Positions 1 through 27,836 of a stretch of DNA of 29,421 bases are shown one piece after another. The translations under genes were made by a program, and so were the position numbers. This DNA comes from a virus: positions 20,141-49,561 of the IMG/VR virus record IMGVR_UViG_3300000385_000003; one strand, 5' to 3'. Numbering within the stretch: the stretch's first letter is position 1; each line of letters starts with the position of its first letter. The notes below the pieces were generated by a model. It saw only the letters and a program-made list of their open reading frames with translations. It was not told the origin of the DNA and did no database searches.

Positions 1-303
1 GGGGATGCCGATGGGGTGGCGCACTACGTCAACCTCTTCAAGCAGAGCATCGCCGCCGAGAAGAAACAGCCCGAGCCGCAGCCGCGCCAGGCAGAGCTTG
101 AGAAGCAGGTCGCGCCGAACCGTTCGGCTGGCCCGCGCGGGCGTCAGGGGGACGGACAGAACTCCAAGGTCTGGACGCAGCAGCAGCTCGCCCAGGCATG
201 GGACAAGGTCCGGGTCCTGAACACGCGGGGGCGGTACGACGAGGCGGCGAAACTTGAAGCTGAAGTGACTGCTGCGTACATGGATGGCCGGGTTCGAGCC
301 TAA
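1..303 (+). CDS. Scaffolding-like protein, C-terminal end (5' partial)
   Basis: The reading frame is open from the first base and stops at TAA 301-303, so only the last 100 residues are visible and the true start lies outside the window. The fragment is highly charged, with a Gln/Pro/Lys-rich linker and then a short helical tail containing WTQQQLAQAWDKV and ending in MDGRVRA. Known of the class: podovirus capsid assembly (scaffold) proteins sit directly upstream of the major capsid gene and end in short, basic, helical domains that bind the coat protein. Position and composition both fit; no enzymatic motif is seen. A GTG at 16 could be read as a start, but coding composition continues upstream of it (GDADGVAHYV), so a partial gene is preferred. 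The function is inferred from context. Confidence 0.6.
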   Translation, partial: GDADGVAHYVNLFKQSIAAEKKQPEPQPRQAELEKQVAPNRSAGPRGRQGDGQNSKVWTQQQLAQAWDKVRVLNTRGRYDEAAKLEAEVTAAYMDGRVRA

Positions 304-304
304 T

Positions 305-322
305 GTGCTAACATGTAAGCAG
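305..322 (+). promoter_or_regulatory. Conserved 18-bp intergenic motif, copy 1 (candidate late promoter or operator)
   Basis: The sequence GTGCTAACATGTAAGCAG lies in the 53-base gap before the capsid gene, and 17 of its 18 bases recur at 16342-16359, also in a gap. It contains a near dyad (TGCT-A-ACATGT-A-AGCA). TGCTAACAT could be read as an extended -10 element, but no good -35 box lies 17 bases upstream. A promoter for a phage single-subunit RNA polymerase is the other reading. A small hairpin (CGTTG/CAACG, 324-337) follows, which could be at the transcript 5' end. Confidence 0.5.
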
Positions 323-356
323 CCGTTGCGACCAACGTGACTGTAAGGAGGCCGAA

Positions 357-1367
357 ATGGCTGCTGTTTTCCCCGTCGTCGGTAGCGGCGACTTCGACAC
401 CAACCCGTCCTACTCGGGCGGTTTCATCCCCCAGCTGTGGTCGGGGAAGCTGAACGCGAAGTTCTACGCGACCACGATGATGACCGAGCTGGCCAACACC
501 GAGTGGGAAGGCGAGATTCGGAACCAGGGCGACACGATCCGCATCCGGACGGCGCCGTCGATCACGATCCGGGACTACGCGGGTGCGGGCACGACGCTCA
601 CGTCCGAGGTTCCGGCGCCGATCTACGACGACCTGCAGATCGACCAGGGCAAGTACTTCAGCGTCCAGGTCAACGACGTGCTGGCGCATCAGGCCGACAT
701 GGACCTGATGAACATGTTCACGGAGGACGCCGCGAAGCAGCTCAAGATCGCCATCGAGAACGACTGCTTCTTCCACTGGTTCGTCACCGAGGGGCCCGAC
801 GCGGCCAACGCCGGGGCGACCGCTGGCGCTCTCTCGGCCGAGTACAACCTCGGCACGGACACGGCCCCGGTGGATCAGTCGACGCCCTCGAACATCCTGA
901 AGACGATCCTGCGCATGTCGGCGGCGCTCGACGAGCAGAACGTGCCCGAAGAGGGGCGCTGGCTCGTGATCACGCCGTACGACCGTCAGCTGCTCATGCA
1001 GACCGACATCGCCCAGGCGTACTTCACGGGCGACGCGTCCTCGACCATCCGGTCGGGTCGGATCGGGATGCTGGACCGCTTCGAGGTCTACGTCTCGAAC
1101 CTCCTGCCGAAAGGTGGCGCGGGCCGCGAGATGGTCGCTGGCCTGTCGGCGACCGGCGACGGTGCCACGCTCACCGACGCGAAGAACCGCCGGATGATGG
1201 TCGCTGGCACTCAGGCGTCGATCACCTTCGCCTCGCAGATCAACAAGACCGAGCCGCTGCGCAACCAGACGGACTTCGGTGACATCGTGCGGGGCCTCGC
1301 GGTCTACGGCCGCAAGGTGATCAAGGACCAGGCGCTCATTACCGCGCTGGTCGGCTCTGCCACCTGA
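357..1367 (+). CDS. Major capsid protein (HK97-fold type)
   Basis: This 336-residue protein forms the head shell. The start is fixed by an AAGGAGG ribosome site at 345-351, the strongest in the head region. The sequence has the usual features of podovirus coat proteins of this size: an N-terminal segment opening onto a Gly/Asp-rich arm, then GDTIRIR, SEVPAPIYDD (E-loop/spine region), VPEEGRWLVITP near residue 200, and a C-terminal stretch with SITFASQINKTEP and RGLAVYGRKVIKD. Neighbours agree: a scaffold-like end lies upstream and adaptor genes lie downstream. A conserved 18-bp motif and a UUCG hairpin flank the gene, suggesting a separately boosted, high-level transcript. The family call rests on motif recognition and gene order; the exact coat family was not tested. 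Confidence 0.88.
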   Translation: MAAVFPVVGSGDFDTNPSYSGGFIPQLWSGKLNAKFYATTMMTELANTEWEGEIRNQGDTIRIRTAPSITIRDYAGAGTTLTSEVPAPIYDDLQIDQGKYFSVQVNDVLAHQADMDLMNMFTEDAAKQLKIAIENDCFFHWFVTEGPDAANAGATAGALSAEYNLGTDTAPVDQSTPSNILKTILRMSAALDEQNVPEEGRWLVITPYDRQLLMQTDIAQAYFTGDASSTIRSGRIGMLDRFEVYVSNLLPKGGAGREMVAGLSATGDGATLTDAKNRRMMVAGTQASITFASQINKTEPLRNQTDFGDIVRGLAVYGRKVIKDQALITALVGSAT

Positions 1368-1374
1368 CCTGAGT

Positions 1375-1394
1375 GAGGGGGCTTCGGCCCCCTC
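1375..1394 (+). terminator. UUCG hairpin after capsid gene (attenuator-type terminator)
   Basis: GAGGGGGC and GCCCCCTC pair over 8 bp around a TTCG tetraloop, seven bases after the capsid stop codon. Only a weak pyrimidine tail (TCTACCTT) follows, so it is likely a partial terminator or an mRNA 3'-end stabiliser that makes capsid mRNA more abundant than the mRNA of downstream genes. Confidence 0.6.
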
Positions 1395-1417
1395 TCTACC
1401 TTCCACAGGAGACTGAC

Positions 1418-1627
1418 ATGGCCGACAAGAAACGCGGAAAGCGCGGAACGAAGTCCAACCCTGCGGGTGGTCCGGACCCCGACAACAGAAACGTCGGGAG
1501 CGCCAAGGGGCGTATGTTCGAGCAGCGGGAAAAGCGGCGTATTTTCGGCGCCATCGCCAACCAGGCCCGAGATGACCGAGAGCCAACCCCCAGCCTGACC
1601 ACCCGGTTTTCCAAGAAAGGGAAATGA
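1418..1627 (+). CDS. Small basic protein of unknown function
   Basis: A 69-residue Lys/Arg-rich protein that I do not recognise. The chosen ATG has AGGAG eight bases upstream; the longer reading from 1373 would run through the terminator hairpin and has no ribosome site. The N-terminus is strongly basic (MADKKRGKRGTKSN), followed by Gly/Pro/Asn residues and a short helix (EQREKRRIFGAIANQ). No membrane segment is present. Its place right after the capsid gene is where head decoration, connector accessory or small DNA-binding proteins are often found, but nothing in the sequence decides between these. It ends one base before the next start (TGACATG). Confidence 0.65.
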   Translation: MADKKRGKRGTKSNPAGGPDPDNRNVGSAKGRMFEQREKRRIFGAIANQARDDREPTPSLTTRFSKKGK

Positions 1628-1628
1628 C

Positions 1629-1850
1629 ATGGACGCAGCGAAGCTCATCAACGCGCTGAAGGCCGAGATCGTCGCGGGCCGGGCCCTTGCCTGGGTGAAC
1701 CGGGAACGCCTCGTCGTGGCGCGCCTCGTCGACGGAACCATGACGCTGACCGACGACGGCAAGCGCGTGGCGGAGATGCTCGCCCAGAAGAGCAAGACCC
1801 GCGCGACCGCCAAGAAGGCTGACACTGAGCCCCCCGCTCAGACGGAGTGA
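1629..1850 (+). CDS. Small head-region protein of unknown function
   Basis: A 73-residue soluble protein that I do not recognise. It begins one base after the preceding stop and is probably translationally coupled to it, since the upstream purine tract (AAGAAAGGGAAATGA) is only a mediocre ribosome site. The first half predicts as helix then strand (LINALKAEIVAGRALAWV, RLVVARLVDGTMTL). A further helix (GKRVAEMLAQKS) and a disordered Lys/Thr/Pro tail follow. The helix-strand-helix plan recalls small winged-helix-like or connector accessory proteins, but this is only a shape impression. It sits between capsid and adaptor genes. Confidence 0.65.
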   Translation: MDAAKLINALKAEIVAGRALAWVNRERLVVARLVDGTMTLTDDGKRVAEMLAQKSKTRATAKKADTEPPAQTE

Positions 1851-1862
1851 TGGAGACTTGCC

Positions 1863-2552
1863 ATGGCCACCGTCAAGGTGACTGACATTGTGCGGCGCGT
1901 GGAGGACGTCCTCCAGGACACGAACATCCGCTGGCCGCGCCTCGAACTGCAAAACTGGATCAACGAGTCCTACCTGGCGATTACGCTGATCCGGCCGGAC
2001 GCCAACGCGCAGTCCGGCAATTTCACATGTGCTGCAGGGACTCGCCAAGTGTTGACGGCCGAGTTCCCTTCCGCGCTGCGGCTTCTGGACGTCACGCGCA
2101 ACGTCGCCGAAACGTCATCTAAGAAGGTGGTCCGCCTGGTGTCTCGGGCCGTTCTCGACGACCAGCGACCGACCTGGCACGCAGAACCGCAGACGGTGGA
2201 CGTGCAGCACTACATGTTTGACCCTCGGCAACCCAAGGAGTTCTTCGTTTACCCTCCAGCCTCGACCTCGGCAGAACTCGAAGTCGTCTACGCGGCTGCA
2301 CCCGAGATGCACTCGCTTACAGAGTCCGAGCTGGACCCGGCGAGCGGCAGCAGCGAAGTTATCCACCTAGACGACATCTACATGTCGCCGATTGTCGATT
2401 GGGTGCTTTACCGCGCCTACTCGAAAGACGCCGAGTACGGCTCGAACGAGGCTCGCGCCGCGTCGTACTACCAGTCTTTCAACGCTTCTCTGGGCGCCAA
2501 GACGCAGTCTGATGCGGCGATCTCCCCCCAAGATGCCAGCGCGGTGACGTGA
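1863..2552 (+). CDS. Phage adaptor protein, DUF6682-like (head-tail connector)
   Basis: This 229-residue protein is expected to form the adaptor ring below the portal. The N-terminus carries the helical adaptor signature (VTDIVRRVEDVLQDT, WPRLELQNWINESYLAI). A beta-rich middle follows with PSALRLLDVTRNV and FFVYPPASTSAELEVVYAAAP. A C-terminal helical part follows with DIYMSPIVDWVLYRAYSKDAEY and ARAASYYQSF, the usual pattern of T7 gp11/P22 gp4-type and DUF6682 adaptors. Length is normal for the family. TGGAGA lies about ten bases before the ATG. The next gene starts one base after its stop, so the two adaptor-like proteins are likely made together. Family assignment is from motif memory. Confidence 0.75.
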   Translation: MATVKVTDIVRRVEDVLQDTNIRWPRLELQNWINESYLAITLIRPDANAQSGNFTCAAGTRQVLTAEFPSALRLLDVTRNVAETSSKKVVRLVSRAVLDDQRPTWHAEPQTVDVQHYMFDPRQPKEFFVYPPASTSAELEVVYAAAPEMHSLTESELDPASGSSEVIHLDDIYMSPIVDWVLYRAYSKDAEYGSNEARAASYYQSFNASLGAKTQSDAAISPQDASAVT

Positions 2553-2553
2553 C

Positions 2554-3168
2554 ATGGTCGTAGCCTGGGACAAGTTCTACACACAGGTCCAGCCCTACGT
2601 CCCGGGCTGCCCGGAGATCGTGATGGACGAACACCTCCGGCGCGCGGCGGTGGACTTCTGCGCGCGGAGCGAGGTCTGGCGCTTCGACATCGAGCCCAGG
2701 CAGACGTTCCCGGGGGTGTCGGACTACTATCTGGACACGCCGAACCACGGGCGCCTTGAGGATGTGACCCACCTTTTCCTCGAAGGTCGTCGGCTTGACC
2801 GGATCGCCGATCTGTATGAGCAGCCGAACCCCCAGGTCCCGGACACACGACCCGATGCCTACGCCGTCTATATGGGCGGCGCACTGCGGTTCTTCCCGAC
2901 ACCGGATCGGGAGTACGCGTTCCAGGGTGCCGGGGTTCTTCGCCCGGCTCAGACTGCGACGGGTGTCGAGGATTTCATTTTCGAGACCTACGGCAGCGAC
3001 ATCATCTGCGGCGCCGTCGCGTCTCTTCTGGAAATCCCGAACAAGGAGTGGAGCAACCCGGAGGCGTCTCTCTACTACCGCTCCCGGTTCCACCGGGCGG
3101 CCGACGACGCGAAGGGGCGCCAGATGCGGAGGACGGGCACCCAGGTCCGCCTTCCCGGTTTCGCATGA
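2554..3168 (+). CDS. Second connector/tail structural protein (adaptor-like)
   Basis: A 204-residue protein with the same broad plan as the preceding adaptor: N-terminal helices (DKFYTQVQPYVPGCPEIVMDEHLRRA), a beta-rich middle (DYYLDTPNHGRLEDVTHLFL, ALRFFPTPDREYAF) and C-terminal helices ending in YYRSRFHRAADDAK plus a basic tail. The motif pair DEHLRRAAVDFC and later SDIICGAVASLLEI resembles the tail-tubular/adaptor group seen next to DUF6682 genes in podoviruses. It starts one base after the upstream stop, without a good ribosome site, so translational coupling is likely. A tail completion or gatekeeper role is inferred from position; no enzyme motif is seen. Confidence 0.6.
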   Translation: MVVAWDKFYTQVQPYVPGCPEIVMDEHLRRAAVDFCARSEVWRFDIEPRQTFPGVSDYYLDTPNHGRLEDVTHLFLEGRRLDRIADLYEQPNPQVPDTRPDAYAVYMGGALRFFPTPDREYAFQGAGVLRPAQTATGVEDFIFETYGSDIICGAVASLLEIPNKEWSNPEASLYYRSRFHRAADDAKGRQMRRTGTQVRLPGFA

Positions 3169-3181
3169 AAGGTGACTGCCG

Positions 3182-6100
3182 ATGATCCCCACCTGCGCTG
3201 TAACCTGCACGGTCCACGACCAGTCCGGCGAACCGGAAGTGGGTGCTGTAGTTCGCGCTCGGCTGACGAGCTACGAAATCTACAACGGTTACGTGGTGCC
3301 GGAAGAAGTCGTTCAGAGGACTGACGAGGCTGGTGAGTGTGTTCTGGAACTCTGGCCGAACCAGCTCGGCGCGGCGGAGTCGATGTACGAGATCACGATC
3401 ATCTCGTCGCGGGGTCGGTCGCTCCGGACGACCGCTGTCGTGCCGAACCAGGAGACTGCGTTTCTCCACCAGATCGCGGAGTTGCCCCCCTACGAGGGTA
3501 AGACCGAAGGCCAGCTGACCCTCGATGCCGCAGTCGCTGCCGGGGCGCAGGCCGTTTCGGACGCGCAGGATGCGGCAAACTCGGCCTCCGCAGCGGCCAC
3601 GTCGGCACTTAACGCGTCTAACAGCGCGTCTGCGGCTGAGAATAGCGAAACCAACGCGGCCACGTCCGAGGCCAACGCCGCTGACAGTGCGTCTGCGGCT
3701 GCCGCCTATGCGACGGAAGCGGCAAACAGCGCGTCTGCTGCCTCGACCAGTGCATCCAACGCCGCCACGTCCGAGATCAACGCTGCTAACAGCGCGTCGG
3801 CGGCGGCCGCGTCCGAGACCAAGGCAGCGAATAGCGCCGATGCAGCCGCCATCTCTGAGACGAACGCAGCCAACAGTGCTTCATCGTCTTCAACCAGCGC
3901 GTCCAACGCCGCCACGTCCGAGACCAACGCGGCAACTTATGCAACGAACGCGGCGAGTAGTGCGAGCGCCGCCCAACTCGCGGAGGCTCAGACGGCGGCC
4001 CTGTTCGACCAGTTTGGCGACCAGTACCTCGGCAGCCACCCCTCGGACCCCACGACCGACAACGATGGCGACTCCCTGACGACGGGCGACATCTACTGGA
4101 ACGCGACTGAGGGAAAGCTCAAGTTCTACGACGGCTCGACCTGGATCGCGCCCGAGACGGTCGCCCAGAACGCGGCCACTGACGCGGAAACTGCACAAGC
4201 GGCTGCCGAGGCTGCGCAGGCCGCTGCGGAGCTGGCAGAAGCGAACGCGGCCACTTCCGAAGCCAACGCCGCGAACAGCGCCAGCAGCGCGCAGGCGTCA
4301 GCGAGCGCCGCTACCACCTCCGAAACCAACGCCGCGACCAGTGAGACTAACGCAGCCACCTCCGAGACAAACGCCGCCAACAGCGCGTCGGCGGCGGCCG
4401 CGTCCGAGACCAATGCGGCCAACAGCGCGTCTGCGGCTTCGACGAGCGAGGCCAATGCGGCGGCAAGCGAGGGTGCGGCTGCAACAAGTGAGGCCAACGC
4501 TGCCGACAGCGCGACCGCAGCAGCGACCAGCGAGACCAACGCGGCCACGTCCGAAGCCAATGCGGCCAACAGCGCGTCCGCAGCCGTAACGTCCGAGACC
4601 AACGCTGGCAACAGCGCCGATGCAGCCGCCATCTCTGAGACTAACGCGGCTACCAGCGCTTCCTCGGCTTCGACCAGCGAGATTAACGCGGCAACCTCGG
4701 CGGCCAACGCCGCCACTTCGGAAGCGAACGCCGCCGACAGCGCATCCGAGGCCGCTACCAGCGCCTCTGGTGCGGCCAACAGCGCCTCCGCAGCGGCCGC
4801 GTCTGAGACCAACGTCGCCAACAGCGCGGCAGCCGCCGCGACAAGTGAGACCAACGCGGCCGACAGTGCATCAGCGGCAGCCACGTCTGAGGCCAACGCG
4901 GCCACGTCCGAGACCAACGCCGCTGACAGTGCATCTGCGGCTGCCGCCTCTGCGACGGAAGCGGCCGACAGCGCGTCTGCGGCCTCGGCCAGTGAAACCA
5001 ATGCGGCGGCGAGCGAGAGTGCGGCTGCGACAAGTGAGACCAACGCTGCCGACAGCGCGACCGCAGCGGCGTCCAGCGAGACCAACGCGGCCACGTCCGA
5101 GATCAACGCTGCTAACAGCGCGTCGGCGGCGGCCGCGTCCGAGACTGACGTCGCCAACAGCGCGGCGGCCGCTGCGACCAGTGAGGCGAACGCTGCCGCG
5201 AGTGAGAGCGCAGCGGCCACCTTCGCAACCGAGGCGGCCACCTCGGCGACTGAGGCGTCTACTTCTGCGACCAACGCCGCCACGTCCGAGACCAACGCGG
5301 CAAGCAGCGCGACGGCAGCCCAGTCTGCCCAGGCCGCAGCCGAAACAGCCCGCGACCAAACCCTCGACGCCTTTGACAGCTTCGACGACCGCTACCTTGG
5401 CGCCAAGGACAGCGACCCCACAACCGACAACGACGGCAACCCGCTAGAGGGCGGCGCGCTCTACTTCAACACCCCCGCTGGCGAGATGAGGGTCTACGAC
5501 GGCAGCGTCTGGCGCGCGGCCTACGCCTCCCTGTCCGGCGCTCTCCTGAGCGGCAACAACCTGTCCGACCTCGACAACGCCGCCACCGCCCGCACCAACC
5601 TTGGCCTCGGCACCGCCGCCACCACGGCCAGCACGGACTACGCCACATCCACCCAAGGCACTCTTGCCGACAGCGCTGTCCAGCCAGGTGATCTCGCCAC
5701 GGTCGCCACCTCTGGCTCCTACGCGGACCTGACGAACGTCCCTGCGACCTTTACCCCGAGCACCCACACGCACACGCTCGCCGAGATCACGGATGCTGGA
5801 ACCGCTGCTGCGCAAGACGCATCGGCTTTTGCGACCGCTGCACAGGGCGCCAAGGCTGATACGGCCGTCCAGCCCTCAGACCTTCCTAGCGTCCCGGTTG
5901 TCGGCACGGACGTGCTTGCCCATGACGACAACCTGCAAGCCTTCACAGACACTTTCAACCTCCCCACGACGGACGGCGCCGCCGACCAAGTCCTGACGAC
6001 AGACGGCGAGGGCAACCTGACGTTTGCCGACCAGAGTGGAGGCGACGGCGAGATCGGCACAGCCCAAAAACTCGCATACGACCTCAAAACACCAGGTCGA

Positions 6101-8113
6101 CGACTGGAAATCATCCCTGACGGGCAGGAGGTCAGCTTCGGAGAAGTTGTCAGTAACGAGTTTTTCTTCGTTACGGGGCAGAGCTATCTGGAGTTCGGGA
6201 GCGGTATCTCCTCCATTCAAGCCGTTTCCGGCACAGACGACCAAGGCCAGGATCGCTTTTACGTCGAGGTTGATGCTGACAGCGCCACATTGTCGGCGCT
6301 CCAAGGACATTATGCGAATTATATTCCGAGCGATGAAAGTTATGTCCAAGTGTTTTTTGGAGATAACGAGAAAACACACATCTCTGCAATTCAAACAGAC
6401 GACAATCGTTTTTATCAGTATATATCCGTTATTGTTGCGGTTTATGAGGGCGTAAACTTACACGACATTGAAAACCCCGTCGATAACGGAGACGGGACAT
6501 TTCGTGTCCGTTTGGGCGCCATGCGCTCCTGGGAGAACCCAAGCGAGACCCACAGCCAGCCCCTTTATACGCCGGGAGACCCCCTGGGCCTCTTCTTTGA
6601 CTACGACGACGGCCCCAGGGAACACAATAAAATCACGTTTGACGGAACTGTCGATATAACAGCGACCAGCTGGTTCTCCAGCGTTGAGGACCGAGGCGAG
6701 GCCCTGATTGCGCTCGACGGCCCGGACCAATCTTACGAGTTTACGGGGCGATACAGGTATGGCCCCGGGGAGACCATTCCAGAAATAACCTCTAACAGTG
6801 TCACCATTAGATCGAACCATTCATATACGAAGGTCTCGGCTTATGAGCCTTGGCCGTCTTACAAAAACCTTCAGGCCCGCATATGGCATAACACTGGCGC
6901 TGAGTTTGAGCCCGTATATATACGCACAGCCACCGTAAGCGACAACAAGGCGGTCTTGGAGTTTGACGCAAGCGGGCTGTATAACGTCCCTACGCCCGAC
7001 TCCGTGGTGCAAAATGATTACTTCACATATGTCGGCCCGCCCGACTATACTATTTATAATCTGGACAATGAGCTAACGTTTGGCGGTGGTTCTGGTAATC
7101 TTTTCCTTGGGCCTAGCGATCTTAAGTTTCACTACTACAACGGCACGAGTTTTCAGAACTTTAGTGGCAACATCGCCCTAACGGGGTCTGGTCAGTATTA
7201 CACAGGCTATGAAAACCTGAGTCCGATCGCCATGAACAACATATCGGCAGGAACTGATAGCCTCCGTGTTAGCCACTTTAATGTTCCAGGTATTGATGAA
7301 ATATCAGGAAACATTGCGTTGGGCTCAAACGCCTTGGGAAATGTGGGTGTTAACACCCACTTCTCGGGTAGCAATTTTTATGTTGGTAACAACATCGCTT
7401 TGGGCAGTAGTGCCGCAGAATGGTTAGAAGCACACTCAAATATAGCGAGCTCTGTTTTTTTAGGGACGCACGCGGGCGCGTATGGAAGTTATGGCTCTCA
7501 GGTTGTGTGCTTGGGCAGCTTTAGCCAAGTAACAGCCGACCACCAAGTGCAGCTCGGCAGCAACCACCACCAAGTCTACAGCCAGTCTGCAATTAACGTG
7601 CGGTCCGACGCCCGAGACAAAGCGGATGTGCGGGACACGGTGTTTGGGCTGGATTTCATCACCAGCTTGCGCCCGGTCGACTATCGCTGGGATATGCGTG
7701 ATGACTACTTCGACATTGAGGAATACGAGGTCGAAGTCACGCGCCAGCGCACAGTGCAGGTGGAAAACCCGGACTTCGACCCTGCCCAACCCGAAGACCC
7801 GGAGCACAACCCGAGGACAGTGCCCGAGGTCGAGGAATACACCGAAACCGAAACCCGCACCCGCAAGGTCAAACTGGACAAAGACGGGTCTAAGAAGCGG
7901 ACGCGCTTCCACCACGGTTTCGTGGCGCAGGACGTAAAGGCCGTCGCAGATAGCATCGGACACGACTTTGGGGGCTATCAGGACCACACGGTGAACGGTG
8001 GAGATGACGTAAAGACACTGCAATACGAGCAGTTGATCGCCCCCATGGTGAAAGCCATCCAAGAGCTGTCTGACCGCGTCAAGGAACTTGAGGCACGTCT
8101 GGGCGAGAAGTGA
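3182..8113 (+). CDS. Long tail fibre with self-cleaving S74 chaperone domain
   Basis: A 1643-residue receptor-binding fibre. Residues 1-110 form a beta-rich attachment domain. About 130-270 and 328-725 are heptad repeats of the type TSETNAA/NSASAAA, expected to make a trimeric coiled coil, as in lambda Stf-like fibres. Two YLG...YDGxxW modules (275-321 and 731-777) each follow a heptad block. Residues 790-950 hold phage-fibre repeats (NNLSDLDNAATARTNLGLG, GSYADLTNVP). The region 960-1400 is AT-rich at DNA level and probably contacts the receptor. NIALGSNAL/NIALGSSA repeats near 1385-1430 resemble YadA-type head repeats. The C-terminal peptidase S74 domain begins at SDARDK, giving the Ser1475/Lys1480 dyad, so self-cleavage should release about 169 residues. 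That domain has a charged insertion and ends in a Leu-rich coiled coil. A leading AAAGGTGA supports the start. Confidence 0.88.
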   Translation: MIPTCAVTCTVHDQSGEPEVGAVVRARLTSYEIYNGYVVPEEVVQRTDEAGECVLELWPNQLGAAESMYEITIISSRGRSLRTTAVVPNQETAFLHQIAELPPYEGKTEGQLTLDAAVAAGAQAVSDAQDAANSASAAATSALNASNSASAAENSETNAATSEANAADSASAAAAYATEAANSASAASTSASNAATSEINAANSASAAAASETKAANSADAAAISETNAANSASSSSTSASNAATSETNAATYATNAASSASAAQLAEAQTAALFDQFGDQYLGSHPSDPTTDNDGDSLTTGDIYWNATEGKLKFYDGSTWIAPETVAQNAATDAETAQAAAEAAQAAAELAEANAATSEANAANSASSAQASASAATTSETNAATSETNAATSETNAANSASAAAASETNAANSASAASTSEANAAASEGAAATSEANAADSATAAATSETNAATSEANAANSASAAVTSETNAGNSADAAAISETNAATSASSASTSEINAATSAANAATSEANAADSASEAATSASGAANSASAAAASETNVANSAAAAATSETNAADSASAAATSEANAATSETNAADSASAAAASATEAADSASAASASETNAAASESAAATSETNAADSATAAASSETNAATSEINAANSASAAAASETDVANSAAAAATSEANAAASESAAATFATEAATSATEASTSATNAATSETNAASSATAAQSAQAAAETARDQTLDAFDSFDDRYLGAKDSDPTTDNDGNPLEGGALYFNTPAGEMRVYDGSVWRAAYASLSGALLSGNNLSDLDNAATARTNLGLGTAATTASTDYATSTQGTLADSAVQPGDLATVATSGSYADLTNVPATFTPSTHTHTLAEITDAGTAAAQDASAFATAAQGAKADTAVQPSDLPSVPVVGTDVLAHDDNLQAFTDTFNLPTTDGAADQVLTTDGEGNLTFADQSGGDGEIGTAQKLAYDLKTPGRRLEIIPDGQEVSFGEVVSNEFFFVTGQSYLEFGSGISSIQAVSGTDDQGQDRFYVEVDADSATLSALQGHYANYIPSDESYVQVFFGDNEKTHISAIQTDDNRFYQYISVIVAVYEGVNLHDIENPVDNGDGTFRVRLGAMRSWENPSETHSQPLYTPGDPLGLFFDYDDGPREHNKITFDGTVDITATSWFSSVEDRGEALIALDGPDQSYEFTGRYRYGPGETIPEITSNSVTIRSNHSYTKVSAYEPWPSYKNLQARIWHNTGAEFEPVYIRTATVSDNKAVLEFDASGLYNVPTPDSVVQNDYFTYVGPPDYTIYNLDNELTFGGGSGNLFLGPSDLKFHYYNGTSFQNFSGNIALTGSGQYYTGYENLSPIAMNNISAGTDSLRVSHFNVPGIDEISGNIALGSNALGNVGVNTHFSGSNFYVGNNIALGSSAAEWLEAHSNIASSVFLGTHAGAYGSYGSQVVCLGSFSQVTADHQVQLGSNHHQVYSQSAINVRSDARDKADVRDTVFGLDFITSLRPVDYRWDMRDDYFDIEEYEVEVTRQRTVQVENPDFDPAQPEDPEHNPRTVPEVEEYTETETRTRKVKLDKDGSKKRTRFHHGFVAQDVKAVADSIGHDFGGYQDHTVNGGDDVKTLQYEQLIAPMVKAIQELSDRVKELEARLGEK
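3578..3990 (+). repeat. Heptad-coding repeat block 1 in tail fibre
   Basis: Imperfect 21-base units encode seven-residue repeats of the form [TN]SxxNAA or NSASAAA. Alternating Ala positions every seven residues suit a trimeric coiled coil. Units differ mostly at third positions and at one or two residues, suggesting old expansion by unequal recombination rather than recent duplication. Confidence 0.8.
4004..4144 (+). repeat. YLG module, copy 1
   Basis: A 47-residue segment running from FDQFGDQYLG through DPTTDNDGDSL to FYDGSTW, paralogous to 5372-5512. This module is common in phage fibres and here separates the two heptad blocks. Confidence 0.75.
4165..5355 (+). repeat. Heptad-coding repeat block 2 in tail fibre
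   Basis: About 57 consecutive seven-residue units, with TSETNAA, TSEANAA and NSASAAA as the commonest forms. Several longer stretches are nearly identical at DNA level (for example around 3771-3820 and 5090-5140), so recombination between blocks 1 and 2 could change shaft length. Confidence 0.8.
5372..5512 (+). repeat. YLG module, copy 2
   Basis: The second 47-residue copy, from FDSFDDRYLG through DPTTDNDGNPL to VYDGSVW, has exactly the same length as copy 1. It closes heptad block 2, giving the order heptads-module-heptads-module. Confidence 0.75.
6080..7560 (+). other. AT-rich island inside the tail fibre gene
   Basis: Base composition drops visibly here against the roughly 60-65% GC of the surroundings. 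Runs such as TTTTTATCAGTATATATCC (near 6410) and frequent A/T-ending codons (TAT, AAT, AAA, TTT) contrast with the C/G-ending codons elsewhere. The protein frame stays open throughout. It covers the likely receptor-contact part and is probably a transferred cassette. Confidence 0.65.
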
Positions 8114-19232: not shown

Positions 19233-22200
19233 ATGGCATGGACGGCGGCACAACGCGCAGCTCTTGAGCGGGCGGAAGCTCGTCTTTCGGGGCGCGAACG
19301 CGAGGACGACGATCTCACCGAGGCACAGCGCGAGGCTCTTCGTCGCGCAGACGAACGCGTCCGCCAAGGCGGAGGCGGCCAAACCTACGTCGATCCTTAC
19401 GGCAACCGCTACACCCCGCAGTCTTTCCAAGAGAGCGAGGAGGACGACAAGGGCCTCGTAGACCGTGTCCTGAGCCTGGGCGAAGCACCCGCTAGGATGA
19501 ATGAGTTCGTGGGGTCCCTTGGCCGGGGCATCATTCGAGGAGCCGTCAACCTCAGCACCCTGCCCGACGTCCGGACGGCCGAGCGCCTGCCAGAGACCGC
19601 CGAATATGAACGCGACCGCGCGGAGCGGGCCGAAAGCGGCGATCTTCCCCTGTGGGAGCGCATCGTCACAGGGCGCTTCACCGGCCGGGAAGACCCGGAA
19701 GAGCTGGAAGAAACTGCTGCGGAAGCCGCGCAACGCGCTGCAGAGCGTCGGGCGTGGGCCGCAGAGACCTTCCCCATGTCGGAACGCGGCGGTCAGGCGG
19801 TCCGAGACATCACCGGCGCCCAGTCGTTCCGGGAGGGCCTCAGCGCTGCGGTATCTCAACCTCTGGCGACGGCTCAAGGGGGTCTTGAGGTTCTATCCGA
19901 GCAGGCCCTCCCTATGGCTGCCGGTCTTGCCACGCGCAGACCTCAGCTCGCTGTTCCCGCCATGGCGGCGAGCGACTACACGCAGGAGCGTTATGGCCAG
20001 CTGGTCTCCGAGGCCGCCGAAGCAGGCTACGACCTGACCGACCCAGAGCAGGCACGAGCTGCCGTCAACGACCGCGAGTTCATGGAGCGCCAAGCTCAAC
20101 GTGGGCGCACGCGCGGCTCCGTCATGTTCGTGGCGAACATCTTGTCCGGCGGCCTTGCGGCGCGCGCCCCGCAGTCCCTGATCGGTGTAGCGGGCAACAC
20201 CGGCGCGCAGATGGGTATCGGCGCGGGTTCTGAGGCGACTGCCGAGTACCTCGACACCGGGACAGTCCAGCCTGGCGAAGTCATCATGGAGGGCTTGGTC
20301 GAAGGTGCCACTGCACCGGCTGACGTCGCCGCCCTCGGCCGCGAGCCCCAACAGCCCCTCTCCAGCTCTACCGACCTCAGCCCCGAGGACGCGGCCCAGT
20401 CTGCACTGGATGAAGCCGCCCTGTCTGCCCAAGCACGCCGGGAGGCAGAGGAAGCCGAGGCCCAGGAGGCAGCCAAGGAACGCGCCCGCAAGGAAGCCCG
20501 CTTGGCCGCGCGCCCGACGTTCATCTCCGAGCAGGAGTTCCTGAAGGTCCGCGACCAACAGCGCCAAGAGGCACTCCTCGATCCCGAGACGGAGATTGGC
20601 CAGGACTTCCGCGAGTGGCAGATGGAGAACGACATCTACGACGCCACTCCCCAAATCCAGAAGGAGTTCCTGCAGGCGTACGTCCCGCCGGACGACGCGG
20701 ACATCGGGCGCGCGGAGTATGTCGAGGCGCTCGACCAGCACGCCGAGTTCAAACAGGCGGAGGCGCAGCGTGCGCCGGAAACCCAGGCCGAGATCGAGGA
20801 GACCAAGTCCCGCCTGATCGCGGAGCGTCAGGCCGCCATGGAGAGCGGCGATGCGGAGGCCCTGCGCCTCGTGGAGCAGGAAGCCGCCAACGTGCTCCTT
20901 CCCGGTGAGTGGCGTGCCGCCAAGTTCGAGGCGGATGGCATCATCACCAACAAGACGGCCACGGAGAGCACACGCAAGGCCGTCGAGGAGACCGCCGCCA
21001 AGGAGACGACCGGCACCGGCGAAGACGCCGCACCGGCTCAGACGCGTGCCCCGCGCCAGACGAAGAAGGACGAGATGCGCGCCTACGCGCAGGACAAGCT
21101 CGGCCCTGACTGGGAAGCCGAGAACCCCGAGCTGTCCCAGATGATCTCGGACGGCCGCAGCATCTACCCCAAGCGCAAGGGCGCCACGCCGCGTTTCGTG
21201 CGCATGGTGGATCGTCTGGCGGGAGAAGACGCCGCGACGCAGGCGCAGGCAGCGGCCCAGGACGCGAGCCCACAGGCCGGTCAGGCGACGACCGCCGCAC
21301 CCACGGCAGAGCCGACCGGACCCGACGCCGAGGCGACTGACGCAGACGCGCAAACCCCTGCAGAGACGCTCGCGCAGGTTCCGCCCGAGGACCGCCCCGA
21401 AGCCCGCACGAAGATGCGGCGCGACGTCATCGCCAAGGCGAACGAGCTACTCACCGAGTCCTGGCGGTCGGATCACCCCGACATCGTGGACGCCATCGCC
21501 AAGAACCGTCTCCAGGAGGCTGAGGCGCGGATCGACGAGCTGTCGGCGCGCGCTGTCGATGGCGAAGTAACGGACCCCGAGGTCGAACCCGACACCGACG
21601 CACAGGAGACCGACGCACAGGAGACCGACGTACAGGAGACCGACGCCCCGGTGCCGCTGGCCACGACCGCCCAGGGCGGCACGCCCGCGCAGGCTGTCTT
21701 CACGCCGCGTTCCAAGGTGGAGGAGAACGCCGTGGCGTTCGCCGAGGAGCGCCTCGGGGAGAACTGGCAGACCGTCTACCCCGACCTCGTGGACACGCTG
21801 CAGGACCGGAAGTACGCCCTCTTCCAGCGCGAGGTGGAGGCACAAGCCGAAGCGCAGCAGCGCGACATCGAAGAGACACAGGGGACGGAGACTGCCGCCA
21901 GGATCGTGGCGACGTCGGATCAACTCTCCACGGCCCTCTCCGGGAACCAGAAAGCCGTCTTCGACACGCTGATCGACGCGCTCCAGAACAATGAAGTCGA
22001 CAGGTTCCTGCAGGCCGGGAAGGCGGTCAACTTCAAGGACCTCGCGGAGGCATCTGGGGTGGGGTCCAGGCAGGCCGCCCGCGCAGCGATGCAGCAAGTG
22101 CGGCCCAAGATCGCCGAGGTTCTCGGCGTGACCGAGGACAAGGTGGCGGAGGCGCTGCGCAGCACTTCGCGCCGGACCACCGAGGAGGCCACTGCCCCTG

Positions 22201-25200
22201 ATGACCCTGTGTCCGTCGTGGACGGCAGCGAGTTCACTGATACTGAGAGTTCGTCGCGCACCATGGGCAGGATCGACTCCCTTGGGGGGTCTCAGAGCGC
22301 CACTGCGGAAGGGTTGGAAGCAGCGGACGCGGAGTTCACCGCCGCGCGCTCCCAGGAGACGGACGCTGTTTACGAGCGACGGGTGGCAGAGGCGCAGCAG
22401 CGCCGCGAGCGCGACATCGACGAGACGCTTCGCAGCATGCCCCGGCAGCTCGCCAAAGACGCGATCACTTTCTGGGACAACCTGAAGTCCGATGGGGCGG
22501 TGCCGATCTCCCGCCTGAGCAAGGAGGACGCCTACGAGTGGGTCATGGCCGTTCAGGAGTTTCTCGACGACCGGATCAGCCGTGAGGCGCTTGACGCGGA
22601 CCAACGCGACATAGAACGTCAGTATGACGCCGAACCCCAGGAGGCAGTGACCGATGGCCAACAAACCACTCCCGAAGCTGACGTCATCGAAGGAGGATAT
22701 AAAGAAGGCGGGCGAGATACTCGACAAGTCGGCGCTGAGGATGGACGAGATGCGCGCGGAGGGGGAGCGTCTGCCCGAGCGGGTGGAGAGGCGGATCAGA
22801 CGCCTCAAGAAAGAGCAGCAGTCGAAGACGCAGAAGTAAGCGACGGGACGTCAGCTGACATTGCGCGGCAGATTTCTGATGCCGATCCGACGCCCCGGGA
22901 GCTTCGCAACCAGAAGTCTTTCAAAGAGGCTTATGCTGAGAAGGATGGCCGCAACCGCGCGCTTTGGGAAAACCCGGCGCTCTCTGATGTGGCGGAGTAC
23001 GCTGACTGGCTCGGTAGCCTCACCCAAGAGCAGTGGGACAAGATAAACCCCTCGTTCACGAACGACCTCAACCCGTTCAAAAACGCGGGGAGTATCGACC
23101 CAGAGGCGGCCAAAGCCAAACTGGAAGCCGCCCTGGAAGAGCCAGAAACCGGTGGCGCAAGCCAAGGGGCGGAAGGCGAAGTAAGCACCCCGGACACGGG
23201 CGTCGTCGGCACGCAGCGGACCGCGCGGGTCGAGACCCGTCAGCGGAAGAAACTCTCGCCGGAGAAGCTGAAGGCGCTGGCAGCGCAGCGCAAGACCCCG
23301 AAGATGGGCACCAGCCCCTTCCTCGACCCCAACGAACTGCTCGGGTCGGACTACTTCGACATCGACGCGGACTACAGTGTCGAGCTGGCCTCCCGCGACA
23401 AGATGGAACGCGTCTTCGAGGAGCTTACAGGTAAGCGCAAAGACCCTCGCGTTCACATCTTCGACACGCTCGACGAGGCCCTGGACGCGGTCGAGGCGGG
23501 GGACCTACCCCCCGTCGACACTAAGCGCATCTGGGACAAACAACCGTTCGGCTGGGTCGCCGAGGACGACAACGGCGACGCCCATGTTCATATGATCCTC
23601 GGCAACATCCCGGCCGGTGGCGAACGTGCGGCCTTCATGCACGAGGTGGGCGGCCACATGGGCATCGACGAGGTGCTCAATCTCGATGAGCGCGAGACTA
23701 TCGCGCAGAAAATCTTCGACTGGGCCAAGCTGGAAGATGGTTCGCAGGAAGCGGTTATCGCCAACAGGGCGGTCGCACGAGCCGATTTCGCCGACAGCAG
23801 AGGCGGCGTGACCGAGGGTAATTTTGCCTCGGAGGTCATCGCCTACTTCCTCGAAGAGGCTACGAACGCGGGCATCGAGCCCACGGTCAAGAACCCGGTC
23901 GGGCGCCTTCTGCGCAACCTCTACGCCGCCTTCAAGAAGGCCATGCGCCGCCTTCGCATGGCGAACGTGGACAACCTGACGCCGCAGGACGTCGTCGACA
24001 TCGCGTATGGCGCTGCGCGTATCAATCTGTCCACGCGTTGGCACGGCACCGGCGCGGACTTCCGCAAGTTCGACCTTCGGTTCATGGGTAGTGGCGAGGG
24101 GAACCAGGCGTTCGGCTTCGGCATGTACCTCGCTGAGCGGTTCGCCATTGGGCGGTTCTACCTGAACGCCATGCAGAAGCAGGCCAGGAAAGACGCCCGC
24201 AAGAAGGCGGGGACCATCAAGGCGTCCAAGTTCCCCGAGTTTACGGAACGCCTCGCTCAAGGCGGTATCCGTCTCATGGACGACCATGGCCGCACGCGGA
24301 AGAACAACGTCGGAAGCCCGCGCGAGGCGTACGTCACGTTGCCGGAACTCAAGAACGCGACGAAAGACACCGCCAGTTTCGACATCGGGCCCAGAGGCCC
24401 GGTCGTGATCGTGGAGACCCGCTACGGGACCGCGAAACACTCCCTTTCGACCCTGGTGGACCCGGCCGAGGACAAGCCCTTGTTCAGCGCCGACGAGCTG
24501 CAGCAGCTCACGGACGCAATTTCGCGGGAGATTTTCCCCGAGGGCGAGCCCGAGGGCGTCATGATGTCCGTGGACACCACGGTCGATGACAGCGAGATGG
24601 TGAACTGGTTCGACGACCTGCGTTCGGAGAACGGCAGCCAGATGCTCTCCCTCCTGGAACTGCTCGACGACGCTGACGCAGACGCAGTGGGGGCCCGCCT
24701 CACCGATTTCGTGAAGGCCAAGAACCGTCTGAAGCCGGAAGATGTGGAGGCTCTCTCCGATCAGGAGTGGGAGGACATGGTGTTGTCCACTCGGGTGGGC
24801 GAACTCTACCAGGTCATGTCGCGCGAGATCGACACTCTCATGCCCTACGTCAGCGAAGACGCCCAGAGGCGTGCCACGTCTTACGAGACCCCGTTCGTGC
24901 GCGGCAAGGCGCTCGTGTCGGCGTTTCTCGACGAGAACGGCATCAAGGGGATCATCTACAACGACGCCGAGTCGCGCGCTCCGGACACGTCTCGTCCGCT
25001 CTACAACCGCGTCATCTTCGACGACCGGAACCTCATCGTGGTCGGGCGCACGCGCGGAAACGCGGCGAGGGACCAACGGCAGACTGTCCGCGAGGCCCGC
25101 TTCGGCATCAACCGCGACCACGCAAAGATGGTGGGCGGCGACAAGCTCGCTCAGCTCTGGGACGACAGTACGTTCATCTTCCGGAACGCGGCCAACTCGA

Positions 25201-27836
25201 CCAAGTTCCTCCACCAGTTCATCCGCGAGGTGCGGGACACCATGCCCGCCGCCAAGCGCTGGTACGACGCGCTCCTCAACACCGAGAAGACGCGCAACGA
25301 CATCCGCCAGTCCGTGGAGAGCATCGCGGCCCGCGCCCGTGACCTGGCGCCCGAGCGCCTGGCGCTCGTGAACGACTTTATCGGGAAGTCGACTTTCTAC
25401 CAGAAGTGGGGCTACGATCCGAAGTGGGAGGGTCGGAAGGTCAAGGTCGACCCGATCATGTCCAAGGCGTTCAAGCGTCTGCGCCCCGAGGAGCAACAGC
25501 TCGTCAAAGCCGTGTTCCAGCATGGTGAAGACATGCGCAAGAGCAAGGCCCAGCTTGCGAAAAACTTCGGTGTGGAGGGCAAGTTCTTCACGGCAGAGAG
25601 CCTCGACGGCCCCTACGCTCCCCTCAAGCGGTTCGGCAACTTCGCGGCCGAGCTGAAGTCGCAAGAGCTGATCAACGCCGAGATGAAGCTGCGGGAGAAG
25701 GAGAACAAGATCAACCGCGACCGGGTGAACAAGCTGAAGTCCGACGACAAGCATTACGTCATCAGCTTCTTCGACACGCTGGGTGCGGCGCGGCAGTTCA
25801 CGGAGGCCAACAAGCAGAACTACGCCTATGCCGAAGCCTCGGAGCGCGCGCCCGACCTGGCGGAAGATCGCGTGTCGAACCCTGAAGCCTTCCAGAAGGT
25901 CCTCTCGGCCCTCAAGGCTGACGAGTCCTCGGCCATCGACTCGGACGCGAAGCGCGCCTTCGGCGACATGGTGAAGACCCTCTACTTCCAGTCCCTGGAT
26001 GAGCGCGATGCCCGGCAGTCCGGCGCCAAGCGTCTCAACCGCGCGGGCTACGATAAGAACATGATGCGCTCGTTCCTCTCCCACGCGCGGGCCGAGGCCG
26101 CCCTGGTGGCTAACCTTAAAAACGGGACTGAGGTCAATGCAGCTCTCGCCGCAGCACATGACGAGGCGCGCCAGGACAGGGCGAACCTGCAGCCCATCTA
26201 CAACATGATGGTCCGCCACTACCGCGACGTGCTCTCCACCAAGGAGACGCCGATCCAGGACCGTCTCGCGGCCATCAACACGACCTACATGCTCACGACG
26301 AGCATCGGCTACCACGTCACCAACGCGACGCAGCCTTACATCTCTGTGATGCGCCTGGCCGGAGACTTCAACAACTACACCCGGGCCTGGAGTTCTCTTT
26401 TCAACGGCTACCGGGTCGCACGGCAGGTGGTGAAGTCGAGCTTCTTCCGGCAGGCGGCAACGACCGTCACGCTCGGTGCTGTGGACACCAAGAACAAGAT
26501 CGAGCTGGACCTCAACAACGCGCCGGAGAAATACCGGCAAATCCTGCACGACCTCGAACTTCGCCAGCTGCTCGACGTGGGCCTCGAAGAAGACCTCGCC
26601 GGTTTCGACCGCTTCAACACAGGCTACGCCATTATCGACAAGGGGTCCGAGGCGTTCGGGACAGTGACGCACAGGCTCTACCAGATTGCCCGCTACGTGG
26701 AGGCGTACAACCGCGTCTCGGCCGCCGTGGCGGCCTATGACATGGCCGGGGAAAACCCCGACGCCCTGAAAGCCATGGACATGACGCGGGAGGAATACAC
26801 GACAGCGGTGTTGGAGGATACGCAGGGTAACTTCAGCCGCCTTGACTCGCCGTTTCTTCTGAAGTTTCTGCCCAAGCTCACGGGGCAGTACCGAAAGTAT
26901 CAGGTGATGATGGCCTGGGTCTATGCGGACGCCGCCAAGAAGGCGTTCACTCACGAGAACCCAAAAGTCCGGGCCATGGGTAAACGCACGCTCGCCTATA
27001 CACTCATCCACACCGGGTTGTTCGCTGGTGCTACGGGTATTCCGCTCCTGAACTTCCTCGGGTCTTACGCCCTGGCGTTCATGAACGAGGACGAGGAGGA
27101 ACCGCAGAACCTGGAGCGGTGGATCAGGGAAAACGTCGAGGACGAAACTCTGGCTGATGTTCTCGCTCGCGGCCTGCCTGCTTCGCTCGGCTTCGACATG
27201 TCGCTCAAGCTGAGCCAGGGGGACATTTTCCACCCGCTGCCCTACGCAGACTTCGAGGTCTCCGAGTCCGGGCTGCACAGCCTGTTCTTCAATGCCGCTC
27301 TGGGCCCGTTCGGTGCGACAGCCACCAACTTCGTGCGCTCAGCGTCCTATTTCTCCGAGGGCGACGTCCAGCGCGGGATCGAGTACATGGTGCCCAAGGG
27401 AGCCCGCAGCATGATCGAGACGCACCGCTTCGCCACGGAGGGGTACTCGCTGCGCAACGGAGACATCATCGTCGATCCGACGGACTTCGACTTCCAGGAC
27501 CTGTTCCTCAACACGCTCGGTCTGCCCTCCACGGAGGTGAACAAGATCAAGTGGACGCGCGGCCAGCAGTACGAGCTGGAGCAGTGGTTCTCGTCAAAGA
27601 GCGGAGACATCCGCAGGCAATACGTGGAGGCTTACGAAGCCCGAGACAGCGAGAAGATGGCGGAGCTGCGCAAGGAGTTCCTAGAACTGCAGGACGCGAA
27701 AGACCGCGTGCGGCCCTTCTTCAATGACTCGCGCAATGTCCTGCGTCGCCAGTTGTTGACAGACCTTATTCGGGCGCCTATGGATTACAGAAGGCGTGAA
27801 CGTCGCTATCGAGAGCAGATGGGAACGCTGGATTGA
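19233..27836 (+). CDS. Giant polyvalent internal virion protein (metallopeptidase-like, ART-PolyVal-like, LPD38-like)
   Basis: A 2867-residue protein, the last late gene. Residues 1-420 are charged helices with a Gly/Ala-rich hydrophobic part. Around 613-860 a repeat of about 28 residues occurs three times (Trp627/Pro632, Trp744/Pro749, Trp845/Pro850), separated by acidic linkers. About 900-970 hold a helix-turn-helix-like segment. Residues 1140-1202 are low-complexity, where a second gene is nested. HEVGGH (His1470, Glu1471, His1475) with Glu1534 in SEVIAYFLEE fits a HExxGH metallopeptidase. WHGTGADFRKFD (His1604) and GFGMYLAE (Tyr1632), with GIKGIIYNDAESR and NRVIFDDRNLIVVG, match ART-PolyVal domains. 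The C-terminal third, with a hydrophobic span in TLIHTGLFAGATGIPLL, resembles LPD38. Known of the class: such proteins are packaged and ejected into the host. Activities here are inferred. Confidence 0.85.
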   Translation: MAWTAAQRAALERAEARLSGREREDDDLTEAQREALRRADERVRQGGGGQTYVDPYGNRYTPQSFQESEEDDKGLVDRVLSLGEAPARMNEFVGSLGRGIIRGAVNLSTLPDVRTAERLPETAEYERDRAERAESGDLPLWERIVTGRFTGREDPEELEETAAEAAQRAAERRAWAAETFPMSERGGQAVRDITGAQSFREGLSAAVSQPLATAQGGLEVLSEQALPMAAGLATRRPQLAVPAMAASDYTQERYGQLVSEAAEAGYDLTDPEQARAAVNDREFMERQAQRGRTRGSVMFVANILSGGLAARAPQSLIGVAGNTGAQMGIGAGSEATAEYLDTGTVQPGEVIMEGLVEGATAPADVAALGREPQQPLSSSTDLSPEDAAQSALDEAALSAQARREAEEAEAQEAAKERARKEARLAARPTFISEQEFLKVRDQQRQEALLDPETEIGQDFREWQMENDIYDATPQIQKEFLQAYVPPDDADIGRAEYVEALDQHAEFKQAEAQRAPETQAEIEETKSRLIAERQAAMESGDAEALRLVEQEAANVLLPGEWRAAKFEADGIITNKTATESTRKAVEETAAKETTGTGEDAAPAQTRAPRQTKKDEMRAYAQDKLGPDWEAENPELSQMISDGRSIYPKRKGATPRFVRMVDRLAGEDAATQAQAAAQDASPQAGQATTAAPTAEPTGPDAEATDADAQTPAETLAQVPPEDRPEARTKMRRDVIAKANELLTESWRSDHPDIVDAIAKNRLQEAEARIDELSARAVDGEVTDPEVEPDTDAQETDAQETDVQETDAPVPLATTAQGGTPAQAVFTPRSKVEENAVAFAEERLGENWQTVYPDLVDTLQDRKYALFQREVEAQAEAQQRDIEETQGTETAARIVATSDQLSTALSGNQKAVFDTLIDALQNNEVDRFLQAGKAVNFKDLAEASGVGSRQAARAAMQQVRPKIAEVLGVTEDKVAEALRSTSRRTTEEATAPDDPVSVVDGSEFTDTESSSRTMGRIDSLGGSQSATAEGLEAADAEFTAARSQETDAVYERRVAEAQQRRERDIDETLRSMPRQLAKDAITFWDNLKSDGAVPISRLSKEDAYEWVMAVQEFLDDRISREALDADQRDIERQYDAEPQEAVTDGQQTTPEADVIEGGYKEGGRDTRQVGAEDGRDARGGGASARAGGEADQTPQERAAVEDAEVSDGTSADIARQISDADPTPRELRNQKSFKEAYAEKDGRNRALWENPALSDVAEYADWLGSLTQEQWDKINPSFTNDLNPFKNAGSIDPEAAKAKLEAALEEPETGGASQGAEGEVSTPDTGVVGTQRTARVETRQRKKLSPEKLKALAAQRKTPKMGTSPFLDPNELLGSDYFDIDADYSVELASRDKMERVFEELTGKRKDPRVHIFDTLDEALDAVEAGDLPPVDTKRIWDKQPFGWVAEDDNGDAHVHMILGNIPAGGERAAFMHEVGGHMGIDEVLNLDERETIAQKIFDWAKLEDGSQEAVIANRAVARADFADSRGGVTEGNFASEVIAYFLEEATNAGIEPTVKNPVGRLLRNLYAAFKKAMRRLRMANVDNLTPQDVVDIAYGAARINLSTRWHGTGADFRKFDLRFMGSGEGNQAFGFGMYLAERFAIGRFYLNAMQKQARKDARKKAGTIKASKFPEFTERLAQGGIRLMDDHGRTRKNNVGSPREAYVTLPELKNATKDTASFDIGPRGPVVIVETRYGTAKHSLSTLVDPAEDKPLFSADELQQLTDAISREIFPEGEPEGVMMSVDTTVDDSEMVNWFDDLRSENGSQMLSLLELLDDADADAVGARLTDFVKAKNRLKPEDVEALSDQEWEDMVLSTRVGELYQVMSREIDTLMPYVSEDAQRRATSYETPFVRGKALVSAFLDENGIKGIIYNDAESRAPDTSRPLYNRVIFDDRNLIVVGRTRGNAARDQRQTVREARFGINRDHAKMVGGDKLAQLWDDSTFIFRNAANSTKFLHQFIREVRDTMPAAKRWYDALLNTEKTRNDIRQSVESIAARARDLAPERLALVNDFIGKSTFYQKWGYDPKWEGRKVKVDPIMSKAFKRLRPEEQQLVKAVFQHGEDMRKSKAQLAKNFGVEGKFFTAESLDGPYAPLKRFGNFAAELKSQELINAEMKLREKENKINRDRVNKLKSDDKHYVISFFDTLGAARQFTEANKQNYAYAEASERAPDLAEDRVSNPEAFQKVLSALKADESSAIDSDAKRAFGDMVKTLYFQSLDERDARQSGAKRLNRAGYDKNMMRSFLSHARAEAALVANLKNGTEVNAALAAAHDEARQDRANLQPIYNMMVRHYRDVLSTKETPIQDRLAAINTTYMLTTSIGYHVTNATQPYISVMRLAGDFNNYTRAWSSLFNGYRVARQVVKSSFFRQAATTVTLGAVDTKNKIELDLNNAPEKYRQILHDLELRQLLDVGLEEDLAGFDRFNTGYAIIDKGSEAFGTVTHRLYQIARYVEAYNRVSAAVAAYDMAGENPDALKAMDMTREEYTTAVLEDTQGNFSRLDSPFLLKFLPKLTGQYRKYQVMMAWVYADAAKKAFTHENPKVRAMGKRTLAYTLIHTGLFAGATGIPLLNFLGSYALAFMNEDEEEPQNLERWIRENVEDETLADVLARGLPASLGFDMSLKLSQGDIFHPLPYADFEVSESGLHSLFFNAALGPFGATATNFVRSASYFSEGDVQRGIEYMVPKGARSMIETHRFATEGYSLRNGDIIVDPTDFDFQDLFLNTLGLPSTEVNKIKWTRGQQYELEQWFSSKSGDIRRQYVEAYEARDSEKMAELRKEFLELQDAKDRVRPFFNDSRNVLRRQLLTDLIRAPMDYRRRERRYREQMGTLD
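22639..22644 (+). promoter_or_regulatory. Ribosome-binding site for the nested gene
   Basis: AGGAGG lies nine bases before the ATG at 22654, inside the giant gene. It is a full consensus core and sets the start of the nested out-of-frame gene. In the nested frame a TGA (22648-22650) stands just before that ATG. Confidence 0.6.
22654..22839 (+). CDS. Small helical protein nested out of frame in the giant gene
   Basis: A 61-residue Lys/Glu/Arg-rich protein read one base out of phase with the giant gene. It looks like a genuine amphipathic helical protein (KEDIKKAGEILDKSALRMDE, then ERLPERVERRIRRLKKEQQS). By hand count, about 52 of its 61 codons end in G or C, against about 23 of 62 for the giant gene's codons over the same bases, while neighbouring parts of the giant gene are GC-ending. 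An AGGAGG site nine bases upstream supports initiation. I do not recognise the product. The giant frame here encodes Gly/Ala/Arg/Asp filler, as expected if this stretch is constrained by the nested frame. It could be a regulator or assembly factor made with the ejection proteins; nothing shows which. Confidence 0.65.
   Translation: MANKPLPKLTSSKEDIKKAGEILDKSALRMDEMRAEGERLPERVERRIRRLKKEQQSKTQK

Follow-up and report, generated by a model that had tools for sequence, protein, structure and literature searches.

The window analyzed here, a stretch of 29,421 nucleotides, corresponds to positions 20141–49561 of a 63,305-base virus record (IMGVR_UViG_3300000385_000003) from a double-stranded DNA tailed phage. 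It carries a giant gene whose neighbors encode capsid, tail, and internal virion proteins, indicating that the giant gene is itself a late, virion-region gene. The C-terminal part of its product matches the DarB-like antirestriction family phrog_10089 over residues 2117–2820 only (E 3e-21), and phage records annotated as PLxRFG or DarB-like match the giant protein at 21–26% identity. No Pfam family matched it at E ≤ 0.01 when methylase-helicase domains as in P1 DarB were sought. A small ORF lies wholly inside this gene in its +1 frame, so that the following features occupy the locus:

19233–27836, plus strand: host giant gene, 2,867 aa (ORF translation)
22209–22640, plus strand: domain X of the giant protein, adjoining the overlap on its upstream side, with ..QRDIERQYDA as its C-terminus
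22639–22644, plus strand: Shine-Dalgarno sequence AGGAGG, 9 nt from the nested ATG
22641–22928, plus strand: predicted disordered stretch of the giant frame, including the overlap (AlphaFold2 pLDDT <50)
22648–22650, plus strand: TGA in the nested frame, separated from the ATG by a single codon; the stop-to-stop frame begins at 22651
22654–22839, plus strand: nested ORF, read here as an overlapping gene, ATG start, 61 aa, +1 frame of the giant gene
22848–24182, plus strand: conserved giant segment downstream of the overlap (profile match), with an HEVGGH motif visible in the translation

On the minus strand, antisense to the giant gene, a 1,257-aa open frame with a GTG start spans window positions 23505–27278; it would most likely be a by-product of high GC content.

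The original prediction, made before any database search, had placed a nested 61-codon ORF at 22654–22839, with approximately 85% of its codons ending in G or C as opposed to approximately 37% for the giant frame, and with AGGAGG nine bases before its ATG. All three claims held. The ORF was found exactly as placed, with both frames open over the same bases, and GC3 was 0.839 in the nested frame and 0.377 in the giant frame, compared to 0.813 over the whole giant gene. However, the nested figure is partly trivial because the third position of nested codons is the first position of giant codons (gene-wide GC1 of 0.67), and GC3 of the +1 frame was 0.6–0.75 over much of the sampled giant gene; we therefore rejected high nested GC3 as proof of coding. 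Openness alone was not significant either, given that the nested frame stayed open with a probability of ∼0.48 under synonymous shuffling. The informative signal within the window is instead the collapse of giant-frame codon usage: the codon-usage z-score was −9.1 in the overlap, whereas the lowest value among as many as 200 windows drawn at random from this gene was −3.3, and a GC3 as low as that of the giant frame was reached by none of 3,000 synonymous shuffles. The anti-Shine-Dalgarno duplex predicted for the nested ATG (−10.3 kcal/mol) was stronger than that of any of the 36 remaining ATGs that are out of frame in the giant gene.

The 61-residue product is basic, without cysteine or an apparent membrane segment. 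The claim that a charged helical protein had been laid over filler of the giant protein was supported by structure prediction. AlphaFold2 modeled the nested product as a helical hairpin (pLDDT 77.5); what is conserved among the nested products is a pair of helices joined by a G-x-x-L turn. In the model of the giant segment, the C-terminal part of domain X was predicted to be well folded (pLDDT mostly 89–95), while past the end of domain X the values dropped to <50 and stayed low across the overlap (31–40 there), consistent with a disordered linker, which would be the cheapest place for a second gene. The downstream HEVGGH segment likely represents a zincin-like metallopeptidase motif, as inferred from sequence alone. 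A fold search of the hairpin against viral folds gave no significant match, a PDB sequence search with the nested product returned nothing, and Pfam, NCBIfam, PADLOC, and PDB contained no credible match to the nested products, with only isolated weak hits to single members (PADLOC, E 0.0075; NCBIfam, E 0.039 or worse). Two candidate identities were not supported. The family phrog_13097 matched the window product only (E 8e-4; one of 10 members scanned), with no convincing match in relatives, and an Rz1-like o-spanin, which would carry a signal peptide and a lipobox cysteine, does not fit a product without cysteine.

Two scans yielded approximately 45 distinct giants related to the downstream part of the window giant. 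Relatives are ∼44–61% identical in the C-terminal part of the giant, which represents deep divergence. In the first set, a +1 ORF of 45–64 codons was present at the same place in the nine relatives reaching far enough upstream. A profile built from these nine and the window product (10 nested products) was compared to 3,514 alternative-frame ORFs of 46 giants and matched only the +1 frame, once per giant; additional giants passed E < 0.01 in the initial round, and iteration brought all 23 to E ≤ 2e-10. All 23 giants with domain X had a +1 ORF of 44–64 codons at this place, and domain X was absent from every other giant in a profile search. The computation shows that both frames remain open, that the start codon and ribosome site are maintained, and that the nested gene and domain X always occur together. 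Members sit directly after domain X, which in many ends in ..QR(D/E)IE..YDA. Six-frame searches of whole loci found no family member at any other site; they did recover nested copies from two contigs that are broken, an intact one in L044 and one in L015 that is truncated by the contig end. L044 (positions 1–3700) is a low-GC contig in which the giant is split by several apparent frameshifts, likely assembly errors, and the nested ORF is intact.

An ATG was present in all aligned nested members, and ribosome sites were far stronger than at other out-of-frame ATGs (combined p ∼1e-8, 16 dereplicated loci), with weak Shine-Dalgarno sites in L008 (with the near-identical L002) and L044. Product, frame, position, ATG, and ribosome site were conserved even where giant GC3 was ∼0.2. 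The outcome named in advance as refuting an overprinted gene, relatives with a normal giant frame and a broken nested frame, was checked and came out the opposite way: over the overlap, the giant frame of relatives had abnormal codons and relaxed evolution, while the nested frame stayed open, kept its start codon, and nearly always kept its ribosome site. Codon usage of the giant frame was abnormal in the overlap in most members. However, where relatives are low in GC, it is the giant frame that matches host codon usage better than the nested one, so that codons do not settle the direction of overprinting.

The window product is the most divergent member of its family. Held out of the profile, it scored only 6.6 bits, which was the best score of 119 alternative-frame ORFs in its giant; its membership rests on the combination of place, +1 frame, ribosome site, codon signal, and the residues G37/L40. 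A direct homologue search with this product in phages and viral contigs returned nothing, a search of the overlap region for phages closely related to that of the window returned only two already known distant contigs, and no copies of the giant were found in bacterial genomes. The original prediction had also suggested looking for the small protein as a stand-alone gene; none was found for the window family in the searches made.

Substitution patterns provided evidence of selection. If only the giant protein mattered, changes would be expected at giant third positions, as the flanks mostly show. Instead, substitutions in the overlap fell at giant codon positions 1/2/3 in counts of 21/8/3 between L014 and L017 and 25/18/10 between L006 and L007, with third-position-rich flanks in both pairs, and changes that are silent in the nested but not in the giant frame numbered 18, compared to 8 expected. 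The L014 and L017 nested products were 80% identical, compared to 54% for the giant frame, and nested identity was the higher in most pairs; the close pairs L025–L028 and L008–L002 had too few changes to tell. When each cluster was left out in turn, the product scored above all 500 shuffled versions (synonymous shuffling of giant codons) at 21 of 22 loci, the exception being L014, where 8 of 500 shuffles reproduced the score. Giant-frame GC3 in the overlap was 0.15–0.49 across relatives with gene-wide expectations as far apart as 0.13 and 0.80, as would fit those bases being second codon positions of another protein. These results show that, in the relatives, selection acts on the nested frame at the protein level and constrains it more than the giant frame, with the reservation that they could not include a phage closely related to that of the window.

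Given that distant relatives keep the small gene at the same place, we consider it very likely (probability ∼0.9) that the nested ORF is a real, translated, and overlooked gene, in the absence of translation data. The proposal that a real gene has been overprinted onto a disordered linker was supported by every test made. In the proposed mechanism, a small gene with its own Shine-Dalgarno sequence and ATG would lie inside a giant late-gene message, and ribosomes would initiate independently at the nested ATG to make a 61-residue basic protein, a putative helical hairpin whose Gly-x-x-Leu turn is conserved. In the giant frame, shifted by one base, ribosomes would read through this stretch as well, and its translation would yield a disordered linker joining the folded domain X to the zincin-like segment. 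That the nested product is made during infection is inferred, as we have no expression data. Because it is always paired with domain X and is presumably expressed from the message of the giant gene, the product may act with the giant protein as a partner or chaperone in folding or virion loading; a late-expressed partner or chaperone is a possibility only, with function purely inferred.

Three other explanations of the nested frame were considered. A chance ORF, left open in GC-rich DNA and accompanied by a codon shift due to odd linker composition, would be compatible with the ∼0.48 probability of openness and the elevated +1-frame GC3 described above. It is all but excluded by the conservation of product, +1 frame, position, ATG, and ribosome site in relatives, including those with a giant GC3 of ∼0.2, as well as by the reversed substitution pattern in the overlap and the failure of shuffles to reproduce the product score. 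Programmed +1 frameshifting, in which the nested frame would be the C-terminal tail of a truncated giant protein, could account for the nested frame always being +1, and an internal Shine-Dalgarno sequence can stimulate frameshifting. However, a nested-frame stop is separated from the ATG by a single codon in the window and by 0–4 codons in several relatives, which leaves almost no room for a shift, and the ATG with its suitably spaced ribosome site is conserved; no shared slippery sequence was apparent in the upstream stretches, which were inspected only informally by eye. We regard this mechanism as very unlikely. It is also unlikely that the product works independently in host takeover or counter-defence and has only the transcript in common with the giant. 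This reading is suggested by the relatives of the host gene, which include DarB-like antirestriction and polyvalent proteins, but the lack of credible PADLOC, NCBIfam, Pfam, or PDB matches counts against it, and the strict co-occurrence with domain X points to a link with the giant protein.

Other small genes were found nested in giants. Window-type giants contained 26 +1 ORFs with an ATG and a strong ribosome site, compared to 10.9 expected (maximum 16 in 40 shuffles), while their +2 frame contained none. In four related giants, a protein of phrog_2423 (E 1.5e-11) was encoded in the +1 frame, next to a linker rich in Pro/Ala/Thr, at the following positions:

L047, 8799–8975: nested phrog_2423 ORF, ribosome site GGAGGT
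L048, 8793–8969: nested phrog_2423 ORF, ribosome site GGAGGT
L052 and L057, 8799–8975: nested phrog_2423 ORFs, ribosome site GGAGGT

In phage DSL-LC04, a 64%-identical gene follows the portal gene as a stand-alone gene. A further family, named for its N-terminal MPFKSEAQRR motif (MPFKS), has at least 265 relatives in viral contigs. Of 81 loci examined, 16 (L081–L092, L114, L115, L133, and L051) had its gene wholly within a long ORF of about 930–2,855 aa, in the +1 frame, and in the other 65 it lay outside any long same-strand ORF. The engulfing giants form several groups with little or no detected similarity between them. Stand-alone MPFKS genes often begin a few bases from the end of a long upstream gene; none of these upstream genes matched the engulfing giants, and a sister phage with the exact pre-fusion gene order was not found. 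In L108, the MPFKS gene (6001–6183) starts one base past the stop of a ∼2,000-codon frame (3–5999), in +1 phase, and it is possible that this locus is one lost stop codon away from nesting. Descent of the window product from the MPFKS family, considered for a shared G..LPE.V look, found no support in profile comparison: profile–profile probability was 0.1%, and the single-sequence match to the MPFKS profile had an E of 0.027 over 18 columns. On the criteria of an N-terminal MPFKSEAQRR and a KLPExV motif, the window product did not qualify for the family.

How the overlap arose is less certain. The original prediction had offered fusion of two genes across a former small gene as its second reading. 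For the window family this is unproven and has indirect support only, from a remote relative, L040, in which the zincin-plus-C-terminal part is a separate 1,480-aa gene preceded by other genes, from the occurrence of domain X only with the nested gene, and from the two other families that stand alone. The L040 split and the stand-alone phrog_2423 and MPFKS genes lead us to favor, by inference and without great confidence, a giant frame that came to run over an older small gene, which could have occurred by loss of a stop codon or by insertion of the small gene into the linker. The alternative is classical overprinting, in which the giant gene would be the older one and the small gene would have arisen de novo within its linker. 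Consistent with de novo birth, no stand-alone member of the window family was found, for which reason this origin cannot be excluded; moreover, the giant frame fits codon usage better in low-GC relatives, and de novo frames in internal viral overlaps are mostly +1 (PMC8227390). Against it, the giant frame is the less constrained and the codon-abnormal one in most relatives, phrog_2423 and MPFKS exist as stand-alone genes, and L040 carries the downstream half as its own gene. On balance, de novo birth seems to us the weaker of the two origins, by a modest margin.

Growth of a giant frame over small genes, which the stand-alone copies in two of three families suggest, would also underlie a bolder reading. 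In this reading, at least three unrelated families (that of the window, phrog_2423, and MPFKS) have come to lie inside giants of several unrelated lineages, and we lean towards the view that small late genes repeatedly settle, in the +1 frame, in the disordered linkers that giant proteins of phages contain. If so, and with standard gene callers discarding genes of this kind, annotations would lack a whole layer of phage proteins.

Genes nested fully and out of frame in another gene are familiar from tiny viruses; few have been documented in tailed phages, and nested genes tend to be dropped by annotation pipelines. Viral overlapping genes have been reviewed (PMC8227390), and in the literature we searched, which was incompletely covered, no description of the present arrangement was found. 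In phage lambda, Rz1 is embedded in Rz in another frame, and the window gene is likewise a small phage gene inside a longer one, in a shifted frame and with its own start. However, Rz1 is an outer-membrane lipoprotein of a lysis cassette, whereas the window product is a soluble-looking basic hairpin encoded in a virion-region giant. The overlapping genes of phiX174 (B in A, E in D, and K) are similarly nested out of frame, with selection maintaining both products, but phiX174 is a tiny single-stranded DNA phage, in contrast to the 63-kb record of a tailed phage studied here. The host gene itself belongs with the polyvalent and DarB-like proteins (phrog_10089; Iyer et al., 2017, PMC5512222) in being giant, multidomain, late, and equipped with a zincin-like HEXXH; in that article we found no mention of out-of-frame nested genes, and the word "overlap" is absent from its text. 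Comparable in arrangement is also phrog_2423, a phage protein that is likewise small and basic and is encoded, in the four related giants listed above, in the +1 frame; it is unrelated in sequence to the window product and stands alone in DSL-LC04. The comparative evidence shows a nested gene conserved over deep divergence inside a giant virion-region gene, an arrangement that recurs with other small families. The stand-alone copies in two families also offer a handle on the direction of overprinting, under which the long disordered linker would likely be the new protein.

Some further giants contained small ORFs that we record as observations. The giants of L038 (3797–12610) and L039 (3749–12610) each have two separate small +1 ORFs, at 5739–5894 and 6714–6848, with strong ribosome sites (AAGGAG and TAAGGAG); the first encodes an MPFKS-family protein, and the product of the second, which is unassigned, starts with MATLVKAYVRGGMK. 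In a more distant giant, L042, a candidate nested +1 ORF at 7239–7418 has an AAGGA site and encodes yet another sequence.
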